Virus record (IMG/VR): IMGVR_UViG_3300028800_000022
Location: 1 to 44,134 of that record
Strand: one strand, 5' to 3'
Source of the DNA: a virus
Length of the DNA stretch: 44,134 bases
Below are positions 9,747 through 42,665 of the stretch, in pieces (the first letter of the stretch is position 1; every line of letters begins with the position of its first letter). Below the pieces are notes generated by a model that was not told where the DNA came from, did not search any database, and was given only the letters and a program-made list of their open reading frames with translations. Position numbers and translations under genes: made by a program.

Positions 9747-10268
9747 ATGTCCGAAGCGTCCCCGATCCTGCTTTCCTACGAAGGCGAAGGCGAGTTCAAG
9801 CCTGCTGGACCCTACTGGGCGAAGCAGGCCGACCGTCACTATGTCATCGGGGAACGCTACAATCTCGTCCAGCATCACGACCGGACAACGGCAAGCCACA
9901 ACCACGAATTCGCTTGGCTGAAAGAGGCTTGGCAGACGTTACCGGAACACATTGCCGACAGCTACCCAACGGTGGAGCACCTTCGCAAGCGAGCGCTGAT
10001 CGAAGCGGGATACTTCGACGAACAGGTGATCGACGCCGGGACCAATGCTGCGGCGCTCCGCGTGGCTGCTGGCATCAGATCATTTCCGGGCGAGGAATTT
10101 AGCCTGGTTATTGTTCGCGGCCCTGCCGTGGTCGTGCGCCGCGCCAGGTCGCAATCCCGACGCGCCATGAACCGTCAAGAGTTTCAGGATTCCAAATCCA
10201 AGATCATGGAAGTTGTTGCTGCGCTGATCGGTGTTGCGCCTGCCGATCTGAGAAAGGCGGCAGCATGA
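9747..10268 (+). CDS. Conserved phage protein, DUF1367-like outline
   Basis: 173 residues, without a good ribosome site (TTTTAAGCC before ATG). The layout is that of a nin-region protein common in rhizobial prophages: RTTASHNHEFAWLKEAW, then YPTVEHLRKRALIEAGYFDE, a strand GEEFSLVIVRGPAVVVRRA and a final helix KSKIMEVVAALIGV. The similarity to DUF1367 is one of outline only. Confidence 0.5.
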   Translation: MSEASPILLSYEGEGEFKPAGPYWAKQADRHYVIGERYNLVQHHDRTTASHNHEFAWLKEAWQTLPEHIADSYPTVEHLRKRALIEAGYFDEQVIDAGTNAAALRVAAGIRSFPGEEFSLVIVRGPAVVVRRARSQSRRAMNRQEFQDSKSKIMEVVAALIGVAPADLRKAAA

Positions 10269-10654
10269 GCCGCGCTGAGTTCGACAAAGCTACCAAGAAG
10301 GCTGCTCTAAAGCGTGCCGCTGGCAAATGCGAAGCGGTCGGCACCTGGTACGGCCTCAAGCCGGGACAGCGCTGCGAGGCACCCTTGGGTTACGGCTTTG
10401 ACTTCGACCACATCATTTTGGACGCAAACTCCAAGGACAACAGCCTAGAGAATTGCGCGTGTGTTTGCAGGCCATGTCACAAGATCAAAACCACGAAGCA
10501 TGACATTCCGCTCGCAGCCAAGACGGTTCGCCAGCAAGACAAGCACCTTGGCATCCGCAAGCGCAGCACCTTCTCCTGCTCAAGAGATAGCAGGTTCAAG
10601 AAGAAAATAGACGGCACAGTAGTCCCACGCACAGCTACAGGGGGAGAGAGATGA
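10265..10654 (+). CDS. HNH endonuclease
   Basis: 129 residues, ATGA-coupled. The HNH core is FDFDHIILDANSKDNSLENC then VCRPCHKIKTTKHD: the DH pair, the Asn of SLENC and the final His. The CxxC pairs would bind a structural zinc. It is ATGA-coupled to the methyltransferase gene, but phage HNH proteins usually act in packaging or recombination, so a restriction-modification pairing is not implied. Confidence 0.75.
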   Translation: MSRAEFDKATKKAALKRAAGKCEAVGTWYGLKPGQRCEAPLGYGFDFDHIILDANSKDNSLENCACVCRPCHKIKTTKHDIPLAAKTVRQQDKHLGIRKRSTFSCSRDSRFKKKIDGTVVPRTATGGER

Positions 10655-11727
10655 GCGAGAAGCTTCGCGCCCTTGATCTCTTTTCCGGCATCGGCGGTTT
10701 CAGCCTGGGCTTAGAGCGCACAGGCGGGTTTGAAACGGTTGCGTTCTGCGAGATTGATCCTTTTTGTCGTGCCGTTCTGGCGAAGCATTGGCCCGACGTT
10801 CCCTGCCACGACGATATCACCACACGCGAGTTCACGAAAGGCGAAGCAGATGTCATCTGCGGAGGATTTCCCTGCCAGGACATTAGTTTTGCTGGCTCAG
10901 GCGCCGGACTTGCCGGAAAGCGTTCGGGACTCTGGCGGGAATTACTTCGAGCCATTCGCTTGGTTCGACCAAAGTTCGCAGTCGTGGAGAACGTGGCAGC
11001 GTTGCTTGGTAGAGGGCTGGACGTTGTTCTCTGGGACTTGGCCTCGATCGGGTATGACACGGAATGGCATTGCATACCGGCGAGCGCCGTTGGTGCCCCT
11101 CACCGCAGAGACAGAATTTGGATTATTGCCCACGCCAGAAGCGAGCAACACAAAGGCTATCGCACTCCGATCAGCGGGGAGATCACCTCGCAACTTTCTG
11201 CTTCCAACGCCAACACGAATGTATACGCGCGAGAATTGGACGCCAGAACAAATCTTAGCACGTCAAGCCGAGGTGAAGGCAGCCACCTTGAAGAAGGGCA
11301 AGCATCACACTGGGAACGGCTTTGGTTTGAACCTGGCTCAAGCAATCCGGAACTGGCCGACACCGAGAGCGAACGACGCGGAGAAGCGCGGCAACATTGC
11401 GAACGACAAGCGGAATGGATTGCCGGCGGCAGTGAGATATTGGCCGACACCATCTGCAACGGACTTCAAGGGCTCCCCTTCATTGGAAGCAGTGGAGCGC
11501 AGAGCAATGGAGAGCAGGCGCGGCGTGAGATTGCCGGAGTTCCTAACGAAGGATTCTGGGTTGGCAGTTGGTGGTCAACTGAACCCGACGTGGGTCGAGT
11601 GGCTCATGGGATTCCCGCTCGCGTGGACCGCCTTAGAAGTCTTGGCAACGCCGTTGTCCCGCAAATCCCGGAAATCATCGGCCGCGCCATCCTCCAAGCC
11701 CAAGAGCAAATGAGGAAAGCAGCATGA
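10651..11727 (+). CDS. DNA C5-cytosine methyltransferase
   Basis: 358 residues, GGGGGAGAG before the ATG. Motifs in order: I (ALDLFSGIGGFSLGL), II (EIDPFC), IV (GGFPCQDISFAGSG, catalytic Cys75), VI (FAVVENV), VIII (PHRRDRIWIIA), a variable target-recognition region of about 150 residues, and IX/X (RVDRLRSLGNAVVPQIPEIIGRAI). The variable region has the LADT motifs seen in phage enzymes of this type. From the catalytic motif onward the gene is also read in the +1 frame (see 10850). It probably modifies phage DNA against host restriction. Confidence 0.92.
   Translation: MSEKLRALDLFSGIGGFSLGLERTGGFETVAFCEIDPFCRAVLAKHWPDVPCHDDITTREFTKGEADVICGGFPCQDISFAGSGAGLAGKRSGLWRELLRAIRLVRPKFAVVENVAALLGRGLDVVLWDLASIGYDTEWHCIPASAVGAPHRRDRIWIIAHARSEQHKGYRTPISGEITSQLSASNANTNVYARELDARTNLSTSSRGEGSHLEEGQASHWERLWFEPGSSNPELADTESERRGEARQHCERQAEWIAGGSEILADTICNGLQGLPFIGSSGAQSNGEQARREIAGVPNEGFWVGSWWSTEPDVGRVAHGIPARVDRLRSLGNAVVPQIPEIIGRAILQAQEQMRKAA
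10850..11713 (+). CDS. Overprinted PTP-repeat protein nested in the methyltransferase gene (+1 frame)
   Basis: 287 residues wholly inside the methyltransferase gene. ATG 10850 has AAAGG upstream. It reads DFPARTL where the enzyme reads GFPCQDI. SVRDSGGNYFEPFAWFD, WRTWQRCLVEGWTLFSGTW and PRSGMTRNGIAYRRAPL follow. Then come four P-T-P units (LLPTPEAS, LLPTPTRM, NWPTPRAND, YWPTPSATD) and the close LNPTWVEWLMGFPLAWTALE. I know this as a recurrent phage/metagenome protein pattern, found beside or inside cytosine methyltransferases. The enzyme's LADT motif and this protein's WPTP motif are the same DNA. Function unknown; real translation here is inference. Confidence 0.6.
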   Translation: MSSAEDFPARTLVLLAQAPDLPESVRDSGGNYFEPFAWFDQSSQSWRTWQRCLVEGWTLFSGTWPRSGMTRNGIAYRRAPLVPLTAETEFGLLPTPEASNTKAIALRSAGRSPRNFLLPTPTRMYTRENWTPEQILARQAEVKAATLKKGKHHTGNGFGLNLAQAIRNWPTPRANDAEKRGNIANDKRNGLPAAVRYWPTPSATDFKGSPSLEAVERRAMESRRGVRLPEFLTKDSGLAVGGQLNPTWVEWLMGFPLAWTALEVLATPLSRKSRKSSAAPSSKPKSK

Positions 11728-14616: not shown

Positions 14617-14857
14617 AAAACACCGCAAACAAATAGAGCCCCGCCTCCTGTCTCGAGAACAGGCTGCGACCTATTGTGGTGTCAGCGCCCCTACGTTTAT
14701 TTCCGAGTGCCCAGTTACCCCCATAAAAATCCGCACCCGCGTCCTCTATGACCGCAGGTCGCTTGATCGGTGGCTTGACTCCCTTTCCGCCGATGAAGCG
14801 AAGTCCCTCTCGCGGGAAAAGTGGCTGGCGCTCTTAGATGGTGATCATGCGGCTTAA
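14609..14857 (+). CDS. AlpA/excisionase-like HTH protein
   Basis: 82 residues, ATGA-coupled. RLLSREQAATYCGVSAPTFI is the winged HTH of the AlpA/MerR-like excisionase group, and YDRRSLDRWLDSL is the usual wing plus C-terminal helix. It is immediately upstream of, and overlaps, the integrase gene, so it probably directs excision or controls integrase. Confidence 0.7.
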   Translation: MNAKHRKQIEPRLLSREQAATYCGVSAPTFISECPVTPIKIRTRVLYDRRSLDRWLDSLSADEAKSLSREKWLALLDGDHAA

Positions 14858-15950
14858 GGGCGTCAAGCGGGTGGTCTCCCGCAAGAATGGCCGGATTGTC
14901 GAATACTATTACCACCGCAAAACGAACTGCCGGATCAAGGCCAAGTGGGGGAGCGATGAATTCGGCGCCGAAGTGCTCGCGCTCGAGCAGAAGGTCAATG
15001 CCACCAAGCCGAGGGATGGCACGCTGGGGGCTCTGATCGTCGCCTATAAGTCCTCGCCGGAGTTTGAACGGCTCGCACGGCGGACACAGGCTGATTACAA
15101 CCGGGTGTTTGATTACCTCGCGCCGATCCGGGCCATCGCTGTCAGCGACATAGATGCCGGGATGATTTACGGGTCCCGCGACAAGGCCCTCAGAAAGCAT
15201 GGCAGGCGCTTTGCAAACTATGTGGTGCAGGTTTTTAGGCTGCTACTCGGCTGGGGAAAGAGGCGCGACCACGTTGAAATCAATGCTGGAGAAGGCGTGG
15301 ATCTTCTCAAGCGGCCTAAGACCATGAAAATTGCGAACAGGGCTTGGAAGGACGAGGAGCGCGAGGCCGTTCTTGCGGAAGCCCCGCTCGAGCAGTTGAA
15401 GGTCATTGCGCTGGGGATGTTTGCCGGGCTTCGGGAGGGGGATGCTGTTCGGCTCGAGAAGTCCGAGTTCGACGGTAAGGTCATCACCACGATCATCAGC
15501 AAAACAGGCGAGCCGCACTGGATACCGGCTCACTACCGCCTGCGGGAAATCCTGTCTCGAGAGCCACAGCCGCCCAAGAGGACGCGAGAGAGTCGAGAGC
15601 GGGCTACAACGCTCGCGGTGAACAAGTGGGGCCGAGCGTGGACGGAAAGCGGCTTCCGGGCCAGCTTCTTCAAGCTGCTGCGCCGGTTGGAATTAGAGGG
15701 GAAGGTTGGGCCTGACCTCACGTTTCACGGCTTGCGCCATACGGTCGGCAAGCTCGTGATCGAGGCTGGCGGGTCGGTTGAAGATGTCGCGGCGATACTT
15801 GGGCATAAGTCCCAAGTGATGGCAAAACACTACAGCAAAGAGGCCGATACGAAGCGCCGAATGGCCGGAGTTGTGCAGCGGATGGAGCGCACGGAACGCC
15901 GGAGAATTGGAAAACTCGCGGATAAAAGTGGAAAATCCGGCAAGGCTTGA
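14838..15950 (+). CDS. Tyrosine integrase
   Basis: 370 residues from ATG 14838 (an in-frame ATG at 14847 is also possible; neither has a strong ribosome site). Catalytic set: Arg199 (FAGLREGDAV), Lys222, HGLRH at 297-301, His323 (ILGHKS) and Tyr332 (AKHYSK). The N-terminus has the SAM-like core-binding domain. The attP core lies 24 bases after the stop, as usual for tRNA-targeting integrases. Confidence 0.92.
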   Translation: MVIMRLKGVKRVVSRKNGRIVEYYYHRKTNCRIKAKWGSDEFGAEVLALEQKVNATKPRDGTLGALIVAYKSSPEFERLARRTQADYNRVFDYLAPIRAIAVSDIDAGMIYGSRDKALRKHGRRFANYVVQVFRLLLGWGKRRDHVEINAGEGVDLLKRPKTMKIANRAWKDEEREAVLAEAPLEQLKVIALGMFAGLREGDAVRLEKSEFDGKVITTIISKTGEPHWIPAHYRLREILSREPQPPKRTRESRERATTLAVNKWGRAWTESGFRASFFKLLRRLELEGKVGPDLTFHGLRHTVGKLVIEAGGSVEDVAAILGHKSQVMAKHYSKEADTKRRMAGVVQRMERTERRRIGKLADKSGKSGKA

Positions 15951-15973
15951 AATGCTAAGCCATTGTTTTATAA

Positions 15974-16021
15974 TGGTGCCTAGGGGCGGAATCGAACCAC
16001 CGACACGCGGATTTTCAGTCC
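15974..16021 (-). other. attP core: 3' half of tRNA-Phe(GAA)
   Basis: On the minus strand it reads GGACTGAAAATCC, the anticodon arm with GAA, followed by GGTGGTTCGATTCC (T arm) and CCTAGGCACCA (acceptor and CCA). The match ends inside the anticodon stem and no D arm follows, so it is an attachment core and not a functional tRNA. Integration would restore the host tRNA-Phe 3' end. The remaining sequence of the gap at 15951-16114 holds nothing else recognised. Confidence 0.85.
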
Positions 16022-16114
16022 AACGCTATTGCTTTTGCATCATGGGCTTAACATCTAGCGCGCTGGAAAACGCCCAGCAAAGAATCAAGGACTTAGCAGC
16101 CAAATGGAAAACTT

Positions 16115-38543: not shown

Positions 38544-38842
38544 ACAATCTCCTTGAGAGAGCTAAGCCACGATTTGCGTGGCGGCACGTATTCTTCACCG
38601 CGCAATTCAGCCTCACGGGCTTCTGTCATCACCCCATTGACGGCGATGTCGCGGATGTCTTTGACGATCTCGAACAGGAGGATCACTCTGCGATGTAAAT
38701 CCTCCCGGAGATCGGGCGTTTGTGCGTTGCGCCATTCCTGAACGTATTTCTTGTCCAGCGTGGCGATGACTTCGTTGAATAGGGCTGAGTCGAGGATGGC
38801 GGCTGCGGATTGGCCGCGATTGATCTTGTCCTGTTCGGTCAA
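38540..38842 (-). CDS. Hypothetical protein between portal and scaffold
   Basis: 100 residues, ATGA-coupled on both sides. Helical (LHRRVILLFEIVKDIRDIAV) with a Lys/Trp end. Possibly a scaffold cofactor; not recognised. Confidence 0.6.
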   Translation of the reverse strand: MTEQDKINRGQSAAAILDSALFNEVIATLDKKYVQEWRNAQTPDLREDLHRRVILLFEIVKDIRDIAVNGVMTEAREAELRGEEYVPPRKSWLSSLKEIV

Positions 38843-40953
38843 CCCGGCTTCCCTCCGATATTCACTTGAGCCGCCTTCGCAAGCTCAGTGTGAGACTTGG
38901 TGGCTTGCGTATGTGCGTTCGTCGCAATGTCTGTATGGGCGTTGATGAGCGCGATACGCTCTTTGGCGGCAACCTCAGCTTCGATCTGGTAGAGATCGGT
39001 CTGCGCCTTCGCGTCGGTCGTGTATTTGTCGCTGGCGAGCTTGGCCTGCGCCATGATGTTCGCCGCCTGAATCTTGGCTTGAGCCTGCGCCGCGTTCGGG
39101 TCCGAGCCTTGCGGAGGCGGTTGGTCAAGAGCCTGGAAGTTGAAGAACCGCTCCGGCCCTTTGATCCCCATGCCGCTGAGAGCAAGCTCAGCCGTGTTCA
39201 TGAAATTGTCGGCAGAGACCGCGTTCGGGTTGAACGTCTTGGCCTGCTGCTGAATGCTGAATATCAGCATGGCGTTCTGTAGCTGCTGGGCACGGTCGCC
39301 GATGCCAAGGGCGACCGATACCGTCACATCCGCGTCGTCGTAGAACATCGTGGGGTCGATTGGCACCCACTTGTTCCTCAGCCGAACGATGCGCTTTTCC
39401 TGCTGATACTGGCAGACGAGACCGAGGATAAGCTGCATCGCACGCTTGACGCCGGTTTCGGCAAACACACGCGCGATAAGCTCAATCTTGCCCCGCGCCG
39501 CGTCCATGAGCATTTGCTCGCCGGATGCGGTGTCGTGCAGCTTGTTGGCACCGATGCCTTGCGTCTTGTCGCTGACGCCTGTGCGGTTTTCTCTGATCTG
39601 GTCGATGTAGGCAAGACCGGCCAACGCGCCCTGACCAAGGTCGGGGACCATGATCGGGGTGATGGACCCCTGCATCTTCACCCGGATTTTCTGGCCGGGA
39701 ACGCTGGAGAGCAGTTCGGTCGGATCAACGATGTTGTCGGCTACGACTTCTTCACGCTGATTGTTCTGGAGATAGAGATTGTCCAGATATTGCCGGAGGA
39801 TCGTCGTCTTGATGACCTGAATGTCCGAGATCAGGTCAACAATCGAAAAGCCCCACATGCGATGCGGGACGGGAACGGGCGTGAGAGAGGCGTACGGAAC
39901 CTCGCCTTCCCATTCCTCCTGTTCAAGAATCTCGTTGCCTGCACCAGCCACCACAATGCGGCGTAGCTCGGCTATCCCATCCCGGTCGTAATCGACCTTG
40001 AGATACAGTTCAGACTTCCAAACTGTGCGTGTGGAGTCGTCGGATGGGGAATCGTCGTCATTGTCCCCGAAGTTCTCTACTGTATCGCGGGCCGCTGCCT
40101 CGCCAGAGCTTGCCGCGTTATCTTCCGCGCTTCCTGCACACCGTCTAACGAGAGCTTCATCAAACCCTTCTTCAAGTAGCTCAGAAACAGTCGTTCTGAT
40201 CTTGTCTCCCACGAGCCGAGCGTTTTCAATGCTTGTCGCATCGCGGGATATGATGAAGTACTCAGGAGTAATGACCTCAACACAGCACTGCCCCTGCTTC
40301 TTCGCGCGGCGGATGACGACATCGTGGCCCGTCTGTTCCTGCTGCTGGAATGCCTCCTGCCCGGTGTTCGGGTCCTGTGACGGCACATCGACCGTCATTG
40401 GGTATTCGGAATGCTCTAGAACCTCAACGCTATCGTCCGACACCAGCATCTGAAACTGCTGATCGGTCAGCCCATCGAAGCGAGACTTGCGGTAGCCGGT
40501 CTTTTCTTCCCACCAGGCTTTGATGATCCCGTTCTTTGAGATCAGCGCATCCTTGAACCACACTAGGAAGTTCATGAAGCCCGGATTGTCGTGCATCCAG
40601 ACGTAATTGACGTATTCCGTCATTTCGTCAGCGACGCTTACGTCTTCTGCACTCCTGGGCTCGAATTGAACGACCTGTTCGCCGCTTGTGAAGATGCGGA
40701 TGAGGTACGGGAGTATCCACTCGACCGTGTCCCGAACGTCTGTGGAGACCACAGAAGAGCGCCCCGCGCGCTCGTTCCCAAGAAGACGGCCGTAATAATA
40801 GTCAAGGGCCTTCTGCCGCTCGTTCGCAAGCTCCGACGCATTCACACCCTCTGCGTTGTTAAGCTCCGCGCTGACGATTGCGCGTAGTTCCTCGGTCGTC
40901 ATGGGTTTGCGGTTTTTGGCTGGCGACTTGGTTTCCTTGTCGTCAGTTGCCAT
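38839..40953 (-). CDS. Portal protein (P22 type)
   Basis: 704 residues from ATG 40953 (TGATG). ALDYYYGRLLGNERAGRSSV, VVSTDVRDTVEWILPYLIRI and DALISKNGIIKAWWEE are the P22-portal wing region; the clip/crown end is a long helical Gln/Ala barrel (QAQAKIQAANIMAQAKLASD). Its length suits the P22 class. Confidence 0.88.
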   Translation of the reverse strand: MATDDKETKSPAKNRKPMTTEELRAIVSAELNNAEGVNASELANERQKALDYYYGRLLGNERAGRSSVVSTDVRDTVEWILPYLIRIFTSGEQVVQFEPRSAEDVSVADEMTEYVNYVWMHDNPGFMNFLVWFKDALISKNGIIKAWWEEKTGYRKSRFDGLTDQQFQMLVSDDSVEVLEHSEYPMTVDVPSQDPNTGQEAFQQQEQTGHDVVIRRAKKQGQCCVEVITPEYFIISRDATSIENARLVGDKIRTTVSELLEEGFDEALVRRCAGSAEDNAASSGEAAARDTVENFGDNDDDSPSDDSTRTVWKSELYLKVDYDRDGIAELRRIVVAGAGNEILEQEEWEGEVPYASLTPVPVPHRMWGFSIVDLISDIQVIKTTILRQYLDNLYLQNNQREEVVADNIVDPTELLSSVPGQKIRVKMQGSITPIMVPDLGQGALAGLAYIDQIRENRTGVSDKTQGIGANKLHDTASGEQMLMDAARGKIELIARVFAETGVKRAMQLILGLVCQYQQEKRIVRLRNKWVPIDPTMFYDDADVTVSVALGIGDRAQQLQNAMLIFSIQQQAKTFNPNAVSADNFMNTAELALSGMGIKGPERFFNFQALDQPPPQGSDPNAAQAQAKIQAANIMAQAKLASDKYTTDAKAQTDLYQIEAEVAAKERIALINAHTDIATNAHTQATKSHTELAKAAQVNIGGKPG

Positions 40954-41129
40954 CAAGCAATCCCTGGTAATCTGTGAATCTGGAAGAACGAGCGCGTGTT
41001 CTTAAGCTCCCGCTCCCAATAGCGATTGCGCGAGATGCTCGGCTTGAGAATGTATTTGCCAACACCGCTCCAATGGGCCCGGCAGAGGTAGAAATGCCAT
41101 GGCCCAAAGCTGACGTTCACAACAACCAT
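40953..41129 (-). CDS. 58-residue protein between terminase and portal
   Basis: MVVVNVSFGPWHFYLCRAHW, SGVGKYILKPSISRNRYWER and a basic aromatic end. ATG 41129 abuts the TerL stop and its stop overlaps the portal start. Basic, aromatic; could serve head-to-packaging contact. Not recognised. Confidence 0.6.
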   Translation of the reverse strand: MVVVNVSFGPWHFYLCRAHWSGVGKYILKPSISRNRYWERELKNTRSFFQIHRLPGIA

Positions 41130-42665
41130 TCACACAATCCATTTCGTGTCGGGCGCTGGCCACGACTTCGCGTTCGGGTTCACAGGCTCGGCAAACGTCA
41201 ACGCAACCGCGTCCCATTCATCCGGGCTGCGTATCTTTCTCACTAATCGCATGTGCTCTTTGGATTCGAGGACAAGCTGTTGAGTTGTGATGTCGTAGGA
41301 ATAGCCCGGCGCACACGCATCGGTCTGTAACGAGTCCAAGTCTGGAATGTCTGCCCCGCCCTCGCCTTGCAGCCATTCCTTGGACAGCATCCACATTTCG
41401 GCCCGGCGATTCTTTGGGCCAGCCATCTTCTTGCCGTCTTTGTCGATACGGGGCGGATAGATCGGCGCAGAACCGAAGTTCACCAGCCGAAGCTTATCGC
41501 CATAACCCCAATCGCACAGAATGTCGTAAATCCCGCCACCCCCACCAGCATCAATGAACATGCGAGCCGGAAGATCACGGTCGAGGATCGTCTTGAGCTT
41601 TGCTGCCGCCACAGTATTGGTGATGGGGCTGGCGTCACTCTCGACCTTCTCAAGCTTGCGTCCCCGTCTCCATGCGATTGAGAATCTATCCGTGCCCTCT
41701 CGCTTCGGATCGACGCCGATAATGAGTGGGCCAGTTGCTTCGACCTTGGCCTTACGAGCCTTGAGCACAAGCTCGGATGGGATGTAACTGTCGTGGCCTG
41801 TGGTCTGGAATGCTTCTGCCGCTGTCGCAGGATATTCCTGCTTGAACAATAGCGGGTCGTTCAACTCTGCGAGCTTGGCTCGTCTCCATGCGATCTGTTG
41901 ATCGTCAAGGTTATAGAGGTGCTTGTACTCGGATTCCTCAGGATCACAGACGAACCCGGCTCCAGGGTCACGTCGATACTCGTCTGACCAGAACCAGGGA
42001 CAGAAAATCGCTGCGTAATCTCCAACTCCGGCTTCTGCTTTTTGCCATCGCTCATGGAACTCGTTTCCCATTCCGTTTGCGGTGGATTCGAGGATGATTT
42101 CTGTTCCGGGCAAATCTGGGACGGCCTGTACCACTCCGGCGAAATGCGCTCCTGCATTTGGCCAGAAAGCGACTTCGGACCCATGAAAGAGTTGGATAGT
42201 CTTGCTTCGTCCGGTAGCCTTGGTACCTGCGGTTCCCACCGAGTACCCTGAGTCCAATCTGTCGAAGATAAGCTCTTTCGCATTCGACGCCCCTGTCGAT
42301 GGTGCTAATGGATTGTGCTTGTGAAAGCGTTCAACCATTCCGAAAAGGTTGTTCGTCGCTTCCTGTTCGTGTGTGAGGATGTAGGTCTGTACACCCGGCG
42401 TAGTCGATGTGCGGTGGTAGAACCTGCCGCCTGCGTAGGTGGAATACCCACCCTGTCTGCCTTTCAGAAGCAGCGCGCGAACCTTGCCGGTCTTTGCTCT
42501 CTGTTCCTCAAGCTTCTGGTGTAAGTATCTCTGCCCTCGGTTCAGATTGAATGGGTTGATCTGTCCCGTCTTGTCCTTGATGCGCAAGCAGTCCCGCGCG
42601 AATGTCGGGAAGTCGTTCAGCAGTTCCATCAATAATTTCTGGTCTGCTTCGTCTAATTCGCTCAA
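41130..42665 (-). CDS. Terminase large subunit
   Basis: 511 residues from TTG 42665 with GAGG 10 bases upstream. Walker A variant KGRQGGYST (68-76), ATPase Glu193 in GTEIILESTANG, and nuclease acidic residues at IIGVDPKREG (Asp319), MFIDAGGGG and DEWDAVALTF. Overlaps the small subunit gene by 158 bases. Confidence 0.92.
   Translation of the reverse strand: MSELDEADQKLLMELLNDFPTFARDCLRIKDKTGQINPFNLNRGQRYLHQKLEEQRAKTGKVRALLLKGRQGGYSTYAGGRFYHRTSTTPGVQTYILTHEQEATNNLFGMVERFHKHNPLAPSTGASNAKELIFDRLDSGYSVGTAGTKATGRSKTIQLFHGSEVAFWPNAGAHFAGVVQAVPDLPGTEIILESTANGMGNEFHERWQKAEAGVGDYAAIFCPWFWSDEYRRDPGAGFVCDPEESEYKHLYNLDDQQIAWRRAKLAELNDPLLFKQEYPATAAEAFQTTGHDSYIPSELVLKARKAKVEATGPLIIGVDPKREGTDRFSIAWRRGRKLEKVESDASPITNTVAAAKLKTILDRDLPARMFIDAGGGGGIYDILCDWGYGDKLRLVNFGSAPIYPPRIDKDGKKMAGPKNRRAEMWMLSKEWLQGEGGADIPDLDSLQTDACAPGYSYDITTQQLVLESKEHMRLVRKIRSPDEWDAVALTFAEPVNPNAKSWPAPDTKWIV

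Follow-up and report, generated by a model that had tools for sequence, protein, structure and literature searches.

C5-cytosine DNA methyltransferases that naturally consist of two polypeptides have been described, namely M.AquI and M.EcoHK31I (PMC3404938). The larger chain of M.EcoHK31I (YGGCCR) contains motifs I-VIII and X and the predicted target-recognition domain (TRD), and its smaller chain contains motif IX only; M.AquI (CYCGRG) is split in the variable region, and its second chain carries motifs IX and X (PMC3404938).

We analyzed a viral DNA of 44,134 nucleotides (IMG/VR record IMGVR_UViG_3300028800_000022, the whole stretch being referred to as the window), where a methyltransferase gene (alpha, frame 0) contains a second gene (beta) in its +1 frame. 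The M.EcoHK31I beta gene is also located inside alpha, in another frame. As in M.EcoHK31I, the large chain of the window has motifs I-VIII and X and is without motif IX, which is assigned to the small chain by position, natural fusions and constraint. Unlike M.EcoHK31I, with its TRD predicted in the large chain, the window alpha is neutral between motifs VIII and IX (1.02), while beta is constrained there (0.65) and carries PTP repeats. The constraint on the TRD region in beta therefore suggests a variant working like M.EcoHK31I, a likeness based on the published module layout. The gene pairs of phages Peaches (gp77/76) and Samy (49/50) are similar to M.AquI, with IX and X in the second chain; unlike M.AquI, the window keeps motif X in alpha and has a nested second gene. 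The two frames very probably encode both polypeptides of a single C5-cytosine DNA methyltransferase. The features of the locus are as follows.

10651-11727, plus strand: proposed alpha subunit gene, C5-cytosine methyltransferase, 358 aa, motifs I-VIII and X, without motif IX
10850-11713, plus strand: proposed beta subunit gene, +1 frame of alpha, nested ATG, four PTP units and motif IX
10835-10852, plus strand: predicted beta ribosome-binding site (AAAGG-type) and ATG, AAAGGCGAAGCAGATG, from the sequence; such sites are in excess across homologues
10870-10878, plus strand: alpha motif IV PCQ, read as PAR in beta, one base shifted
10982-11077, plus strand: beta N-terminal conserved blocks SWRTWQ and TWPRSGMTRNGIAY, over alpha motifs VI-VIII
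11095-11115, plus strand: alpha motif VIII APHRRDR
11129-11452, plus strand: beta PTP region, PTP at 11129, 11204, 11357 and 11444; alpha neutral here
11579-11626, plus strand: beta motif IX LNPTWVEWLMGFPLAW; the alpha reading is EPDVGRVAHGIP
11641-11655, plus strand: alpha motif X (LGNAV), under selection in alpha

Alpha matches PF00145 (4.8e-43, Pfam profile) and M.HhaI (E 2e-19), contains motifs I-VIII with the PCQ nucleophile and ENV, and has phrog_363 (4.5e-84) and phrog_116 among its PHROGs v4 profile matches. The +1 frame is open at 10730-11713 and encodes 287 aa (864 bases) from the ATG at 10850. Beta, read from 10730, matches phrog_1008 (3.5e-32, residues 30-307 on 25-286 of 329). The Pfam search with beta gave no family and no PF00145 match, and beta is therefore not assigned to PF00145. 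In the window, the strict motif IX pattern is absent in frame 0 and present in +1. Directly 5' of alpha, an HNH endonuclease (phrog_333, 2e-16) was found at 10265-10651, its frame reaching the alpha start codon. The window also contains a tyrosine-type integrase (phrog_1) in the region 14838-16047, followed by a minus-strand tRNA match (15977-16047), suggesting a possible attachment site, and portal and terminase genes at 38839-42665.

The initial annotation had proposed two overprinted proteins at 10850-11713, and the comparative data place them far above chance. For the single gene, alpha was reshuffled synonymously 5000 times to estimate chance: 1.1-1.3% of the reshuffles had an open +1 frame, which is mildly unusual by itself, 0-1 of them contained four or more PTP, and WVEWLMGFP never appeared. 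The tblastn search with the +1 protein detected 205 phage records, with the +1 offset to the methyltransferase frame in 8 of the 8 records checked; in two of the records both genes are already annotated as an overlapping pair, Escherichia phage K1ind2 (ORF29/ORF28) and Paenibacillus phage Leyra (gp61/gp62). The IMG/VR scan with beta detected at least 594 relatives, and sequences were retrieved for 80 of them. Beta was at +1 to alpha in all 82 motif-paired loci retrieved by beta, and alpha was also present in nearly all beta-retrieved loci with enough sequence.

A second scan was blind to beta, with alpha motifs I-VIII alone as the query; the two sets share a few contigs. Frequent +1 stops among homologues had been named initially as evidence against a second protein. 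The 69 beta-blind viral loci with motif X have 6 such stops vs 237 expected, and the +1 frame is open in 63 of them (2.6 expected), while the +2 control frame of the same loci is at chance level (707 stops vs 687). The bacterial set, in which families are mixed, has 118 +1 stops vs 238 expected (open in 29 vs 1.8), and ten single-chain enzymes with motif IX in frame have 122 vs 142. Single-chain enzymes also give weak beta-HMM echoes (up to 25-bit) over motifs IV-VIII, and beta was therefore assessed from stops and from its C-terminal region. These echoes, together with the openness in one GC-rich gene, which alone is not very rare, are what would be expected if the +1 ORF were a passive consequence of conserved alpha sequence and codon bias; the stop deficit with a clean +2 control, and a neutral alpha opposite a constrained beta between VIII and IX, refute this explanation and leave it practically no probability.

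The division of selection between the frames was estimated by classing pairwise substitutions as synonymous or nonsynonymous per frame in the OLGenie manner (approximate counts; 95% bootstrap intervals, in brackets, by resampling loci; sequence pairs are not independent). The alpha dNN/dSN was 0.27 (0.23-0.30) in IV-VIII, 1.02 (0.97-1.09) in the TRD region (VIII to IX), 0.89 (0.74-1.07) in IX and 0.36 (0.25-0.52) in X, and the beta dNN/dNS in the same regions was 0.59 (0.52-0.67), 0.65 (0.60-0.68), 0.32 (0.28-0.37) and 0.84 (0.66-1.07), with the strongest selection at LNPTWVEWLMGFP in IX. Alpha is thus selected in IV-VIII and X and neutral between them, and beta is selected from IV to IX, the excess constraint in the +1 frame that the initial annotation had asked to be sought among homologues. 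The +1 measure upstream of beta, the negative control, was neutral (0.91-0.99), and an alpha-based alignment gave the same result for the TRD region (alpha 0.93, beta 0.69). According to positional entropy, the most variable base between VIII and IX is the wobble base of beta, not that of alpha.

The motif couplings between the frames were confirmed as described initially: GFPCQDI is DFPARTL in beta, IIAHA is LLPTP, and both LADT motifs (11353-11364 and 11440-11451) lie under WPTP. LADT and WPTP co-occur out of phase among the homologues, 94 of 96 alpha xAD[TPSA] tetrads being over PTP. LADT had been suggested to be a by-product of selection on WPTP, or the reverse. In the 313 PTP units compared, the residue at the alpha D position is D in 141, Y in 71, N in 54 and H in 47, and the alpha residues over PTP differ (D, Y, N, H; A, P, T, S) where the base is silent in beta. 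The beta codons behind alpha D and T show the ordinary codon usage of beta (CCG 0.45 and ACA 0.20 vs 0.48 and 0.25 for other beta Pro/Thr), which supports the by-product and rejects LADT as the driver of WPTP. LADT is an echo of WPTP, because the alpha D/T positions vary as the silent bases of beta; a functional alpha motif is ruled out by the variable D, the beta-like codon usage and the tetrad positions.

The closing segment of beta, LNPTWVEWLMGFP, corresponds in position and pattern to motif IX, whose classical form is LTPRECFRLQGFP. With a looser pattern, motif IX is found in both frames in 15 loci, the window included; these four- to five-letter matches are due to chance, and the strict pattern was therefore used. 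It places motif IX in +1 at 177 loci and in frame 0 at 19, and no locus has it in both frames. Motif IX is carried by one frame or the other, and likewise motif X. In the window, K1ind2 and Leyra, alpha contains I-VIII and X and beta the PTP region and IX. In phages Peaches and Samy, alpha stops after VIII, and beta contains PTP, IX and X. Natural fusions in Streptomyces (loci L201 and L206) have I-VIII, PTP, IX and X all in one chain, and in a viral contig (L099) and several actinobacterial loci (L209, L215, L248), frame 0 contains IX and X, with the PTP units still in +1. Phrog_116 and phrog_363 match along the length of the L201 fusion, and phrog_1008 matches its residues 205-395; the C-terminal part of phrog_116 is matched by Peaches gp76 and L175 beta. 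The FastTree tree of the catalytic domain, weakly supported and taken as a hint only, has about 7 frame changes for IX and 5 for X.

Other arrangements were detected among the relatives. In three viral contigs (L015:2215-3192, L017:2185-3306, L063:1051-1968), the beta frame contains motif I, continuous with beta, and the other frame carries IV-VIII and X; this is either another natural split point, located between I and IV, or the result of frameshifts. In locus L077 (1837-3097), alpha motifs IV and VIII are separated by an insert of about 175 aa. Both frames stay open through it, and the beta frame encodes a LAGLIDADG endonuclease there (PF00961, 6.6e-05); a group I intron was considered for this insert, with no Rfam match. 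In Mycobacterium phage prophi91-4 gp24 (L008:1862-3436), PTP repeats occur first in +1 and then in frame 0, the latter together with IX and X. The bacterial loci L228 and L239 have a short alpha without IX and a +1 frame that ends in RWLSGPESLRLQGFPPDWM or RWLSGSERLNMMGFASDWM, with no PTP; they probably represent overlapping pairs whose motif IX is of the classical form, and they may be closer to M.EcoHK31I.

These module exchanges bear on the possibility that beta is an unrelated overprinted protein with its own function, for example anti-restriction. Beta has no Pfam family, and the comparison of its sequence with the PDB gave no relative of solved structure, as would suit such a protein; however, beta co-occurs with alpha, alpha is without motif IX where beta has it, and other lineages join the same segments to alpha in one chain or move motif X along with them. 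We consider an unrelated beta very improbable. The PTP protein, described in the initial annotation as a recurrent, unexplained phage family, instead appears to be the missing part of the methyltransferase (motif IX, and TRD by position), and it falls in phrog_1008, labelled 'DNA methyltransferase'.

Structure and profile comparisons were performed for the fusion and for beta. The L201 model aligned to M.HhaI end to end, residues 1-401 of the model against 16-327 of the chain (Z 25.1 over 241 residues). Motifs IX and X were at pLDDT above 90, and the PTP part was predicted to be disordered, at low confidence; 13 short rows of the L201 alignment were misplaced by MAFFT. In hhalign, beta IX matched classical motif IX weakly (E 0.013 and a probability of 3%; 0.0025 and 12% with the fused set), with the residues aligning as expected. 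In artificial alpha-beta chimeras, the PF00145 match was not extended by beta, and beta alone (AlphaFold, pLDDT 62.7) matched no PDB fold by Foldseek. Because of the poor beta fold and the disordered PTP part of L201, the TRD role of beta is based on position, constraint and the fusions.

For beta expression, the initial annotation had offered the nested start at 10850 or a +1 frameshift. An in-frame nested ATG is present 5' of the conserved part of beta in 125 of 147 pairs (62 expected from synonymous reshuffling), and an ATG with an SD-like site in 67 of 147 (14.5 expected), so internal initiation is favored. A programmed +1 frameshift in alpha translation would produce a fusion of the catalytic half with PTP and IX and no separate nested protein, in agreement with beta being always exactly +1 to alpha and with the one-chain natural fusions of the same modules. 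However, it leaves the excess of nested starts unexplained, the window fusion would be without motif X, and the product of a late shift would not contain the beta N-terminal blocks over alpha IV-VIII, which are conserved (0.59). A frameshift is thus not needed and is an unlikely route.

In the proposed two-chain enzyme, alpha would bind AdoMet and perform catalysis through motifs I-VIII, which include the PCQ nucleophile, and would also contribute the closing motif X; the sequence of the linker between VIII and X would be immaterial. Translation of beta would begin within alpha, with the ATG at 10850 as the probable start, and beta would supply the conserved N-terminal blocks, the PTP region in place of a target-recognition domain, and motif IX. 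Both chains would be translated and fold together into an active enzyme, with beta as the DNA-reading small domain and its PTP region potentially contacting DNA bases. Protection of phage DNA from host restriction by phage methyltransferases is established biology, and by analogy the phage may methylate its own DNA with this enzyme, against host restriction.

Phages commonly have this overlapping arrangement, and in most cases just one half of it is annotated. Phrog_1008, to which beta belongs, and phrog_363 and phrog_116, matched by alpha, are all labelled DNA methyltransferase in PHROGs v4, whose listings are labelled sequence clusters that do not state a two-chain or overlapping layout. The overlapping +1 pairs of K1ind2 and Leyra, which are like the window, are labelled 'C-specific methylase' and 'Mte8-like protein' in the former and as two methyltransferases in the latter, with no relation stated. 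We found no description of the overlapping phage pair in the openly licensed literature. Phage and prophage C5 methyltransferases of this type likely form a large class, for the most part unannotated, where specificity (PTP-type recognition and IX) is a nested +1 gene inside the catalytic subunit; IX and X would have moved between frames more than once, making the overlap a stable evolutionary state, and the specificity half of many such enzymes would have been overlooked.

Overlapping genes are normally an old protein and an unrelated new one, whereas here the two frames would make complementary parts of one enzyme with selection split module by module, so that the pair is well suited to studying how constraint is shared between frames. 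The recurring LADT pattern is explained away as the WPTP echo. For many phage methyltransferases the annotation covers alpha alone, and a clone made accordingly would probably lack activity or have the wrong specificity; the second ORF needing expression can now be identified.
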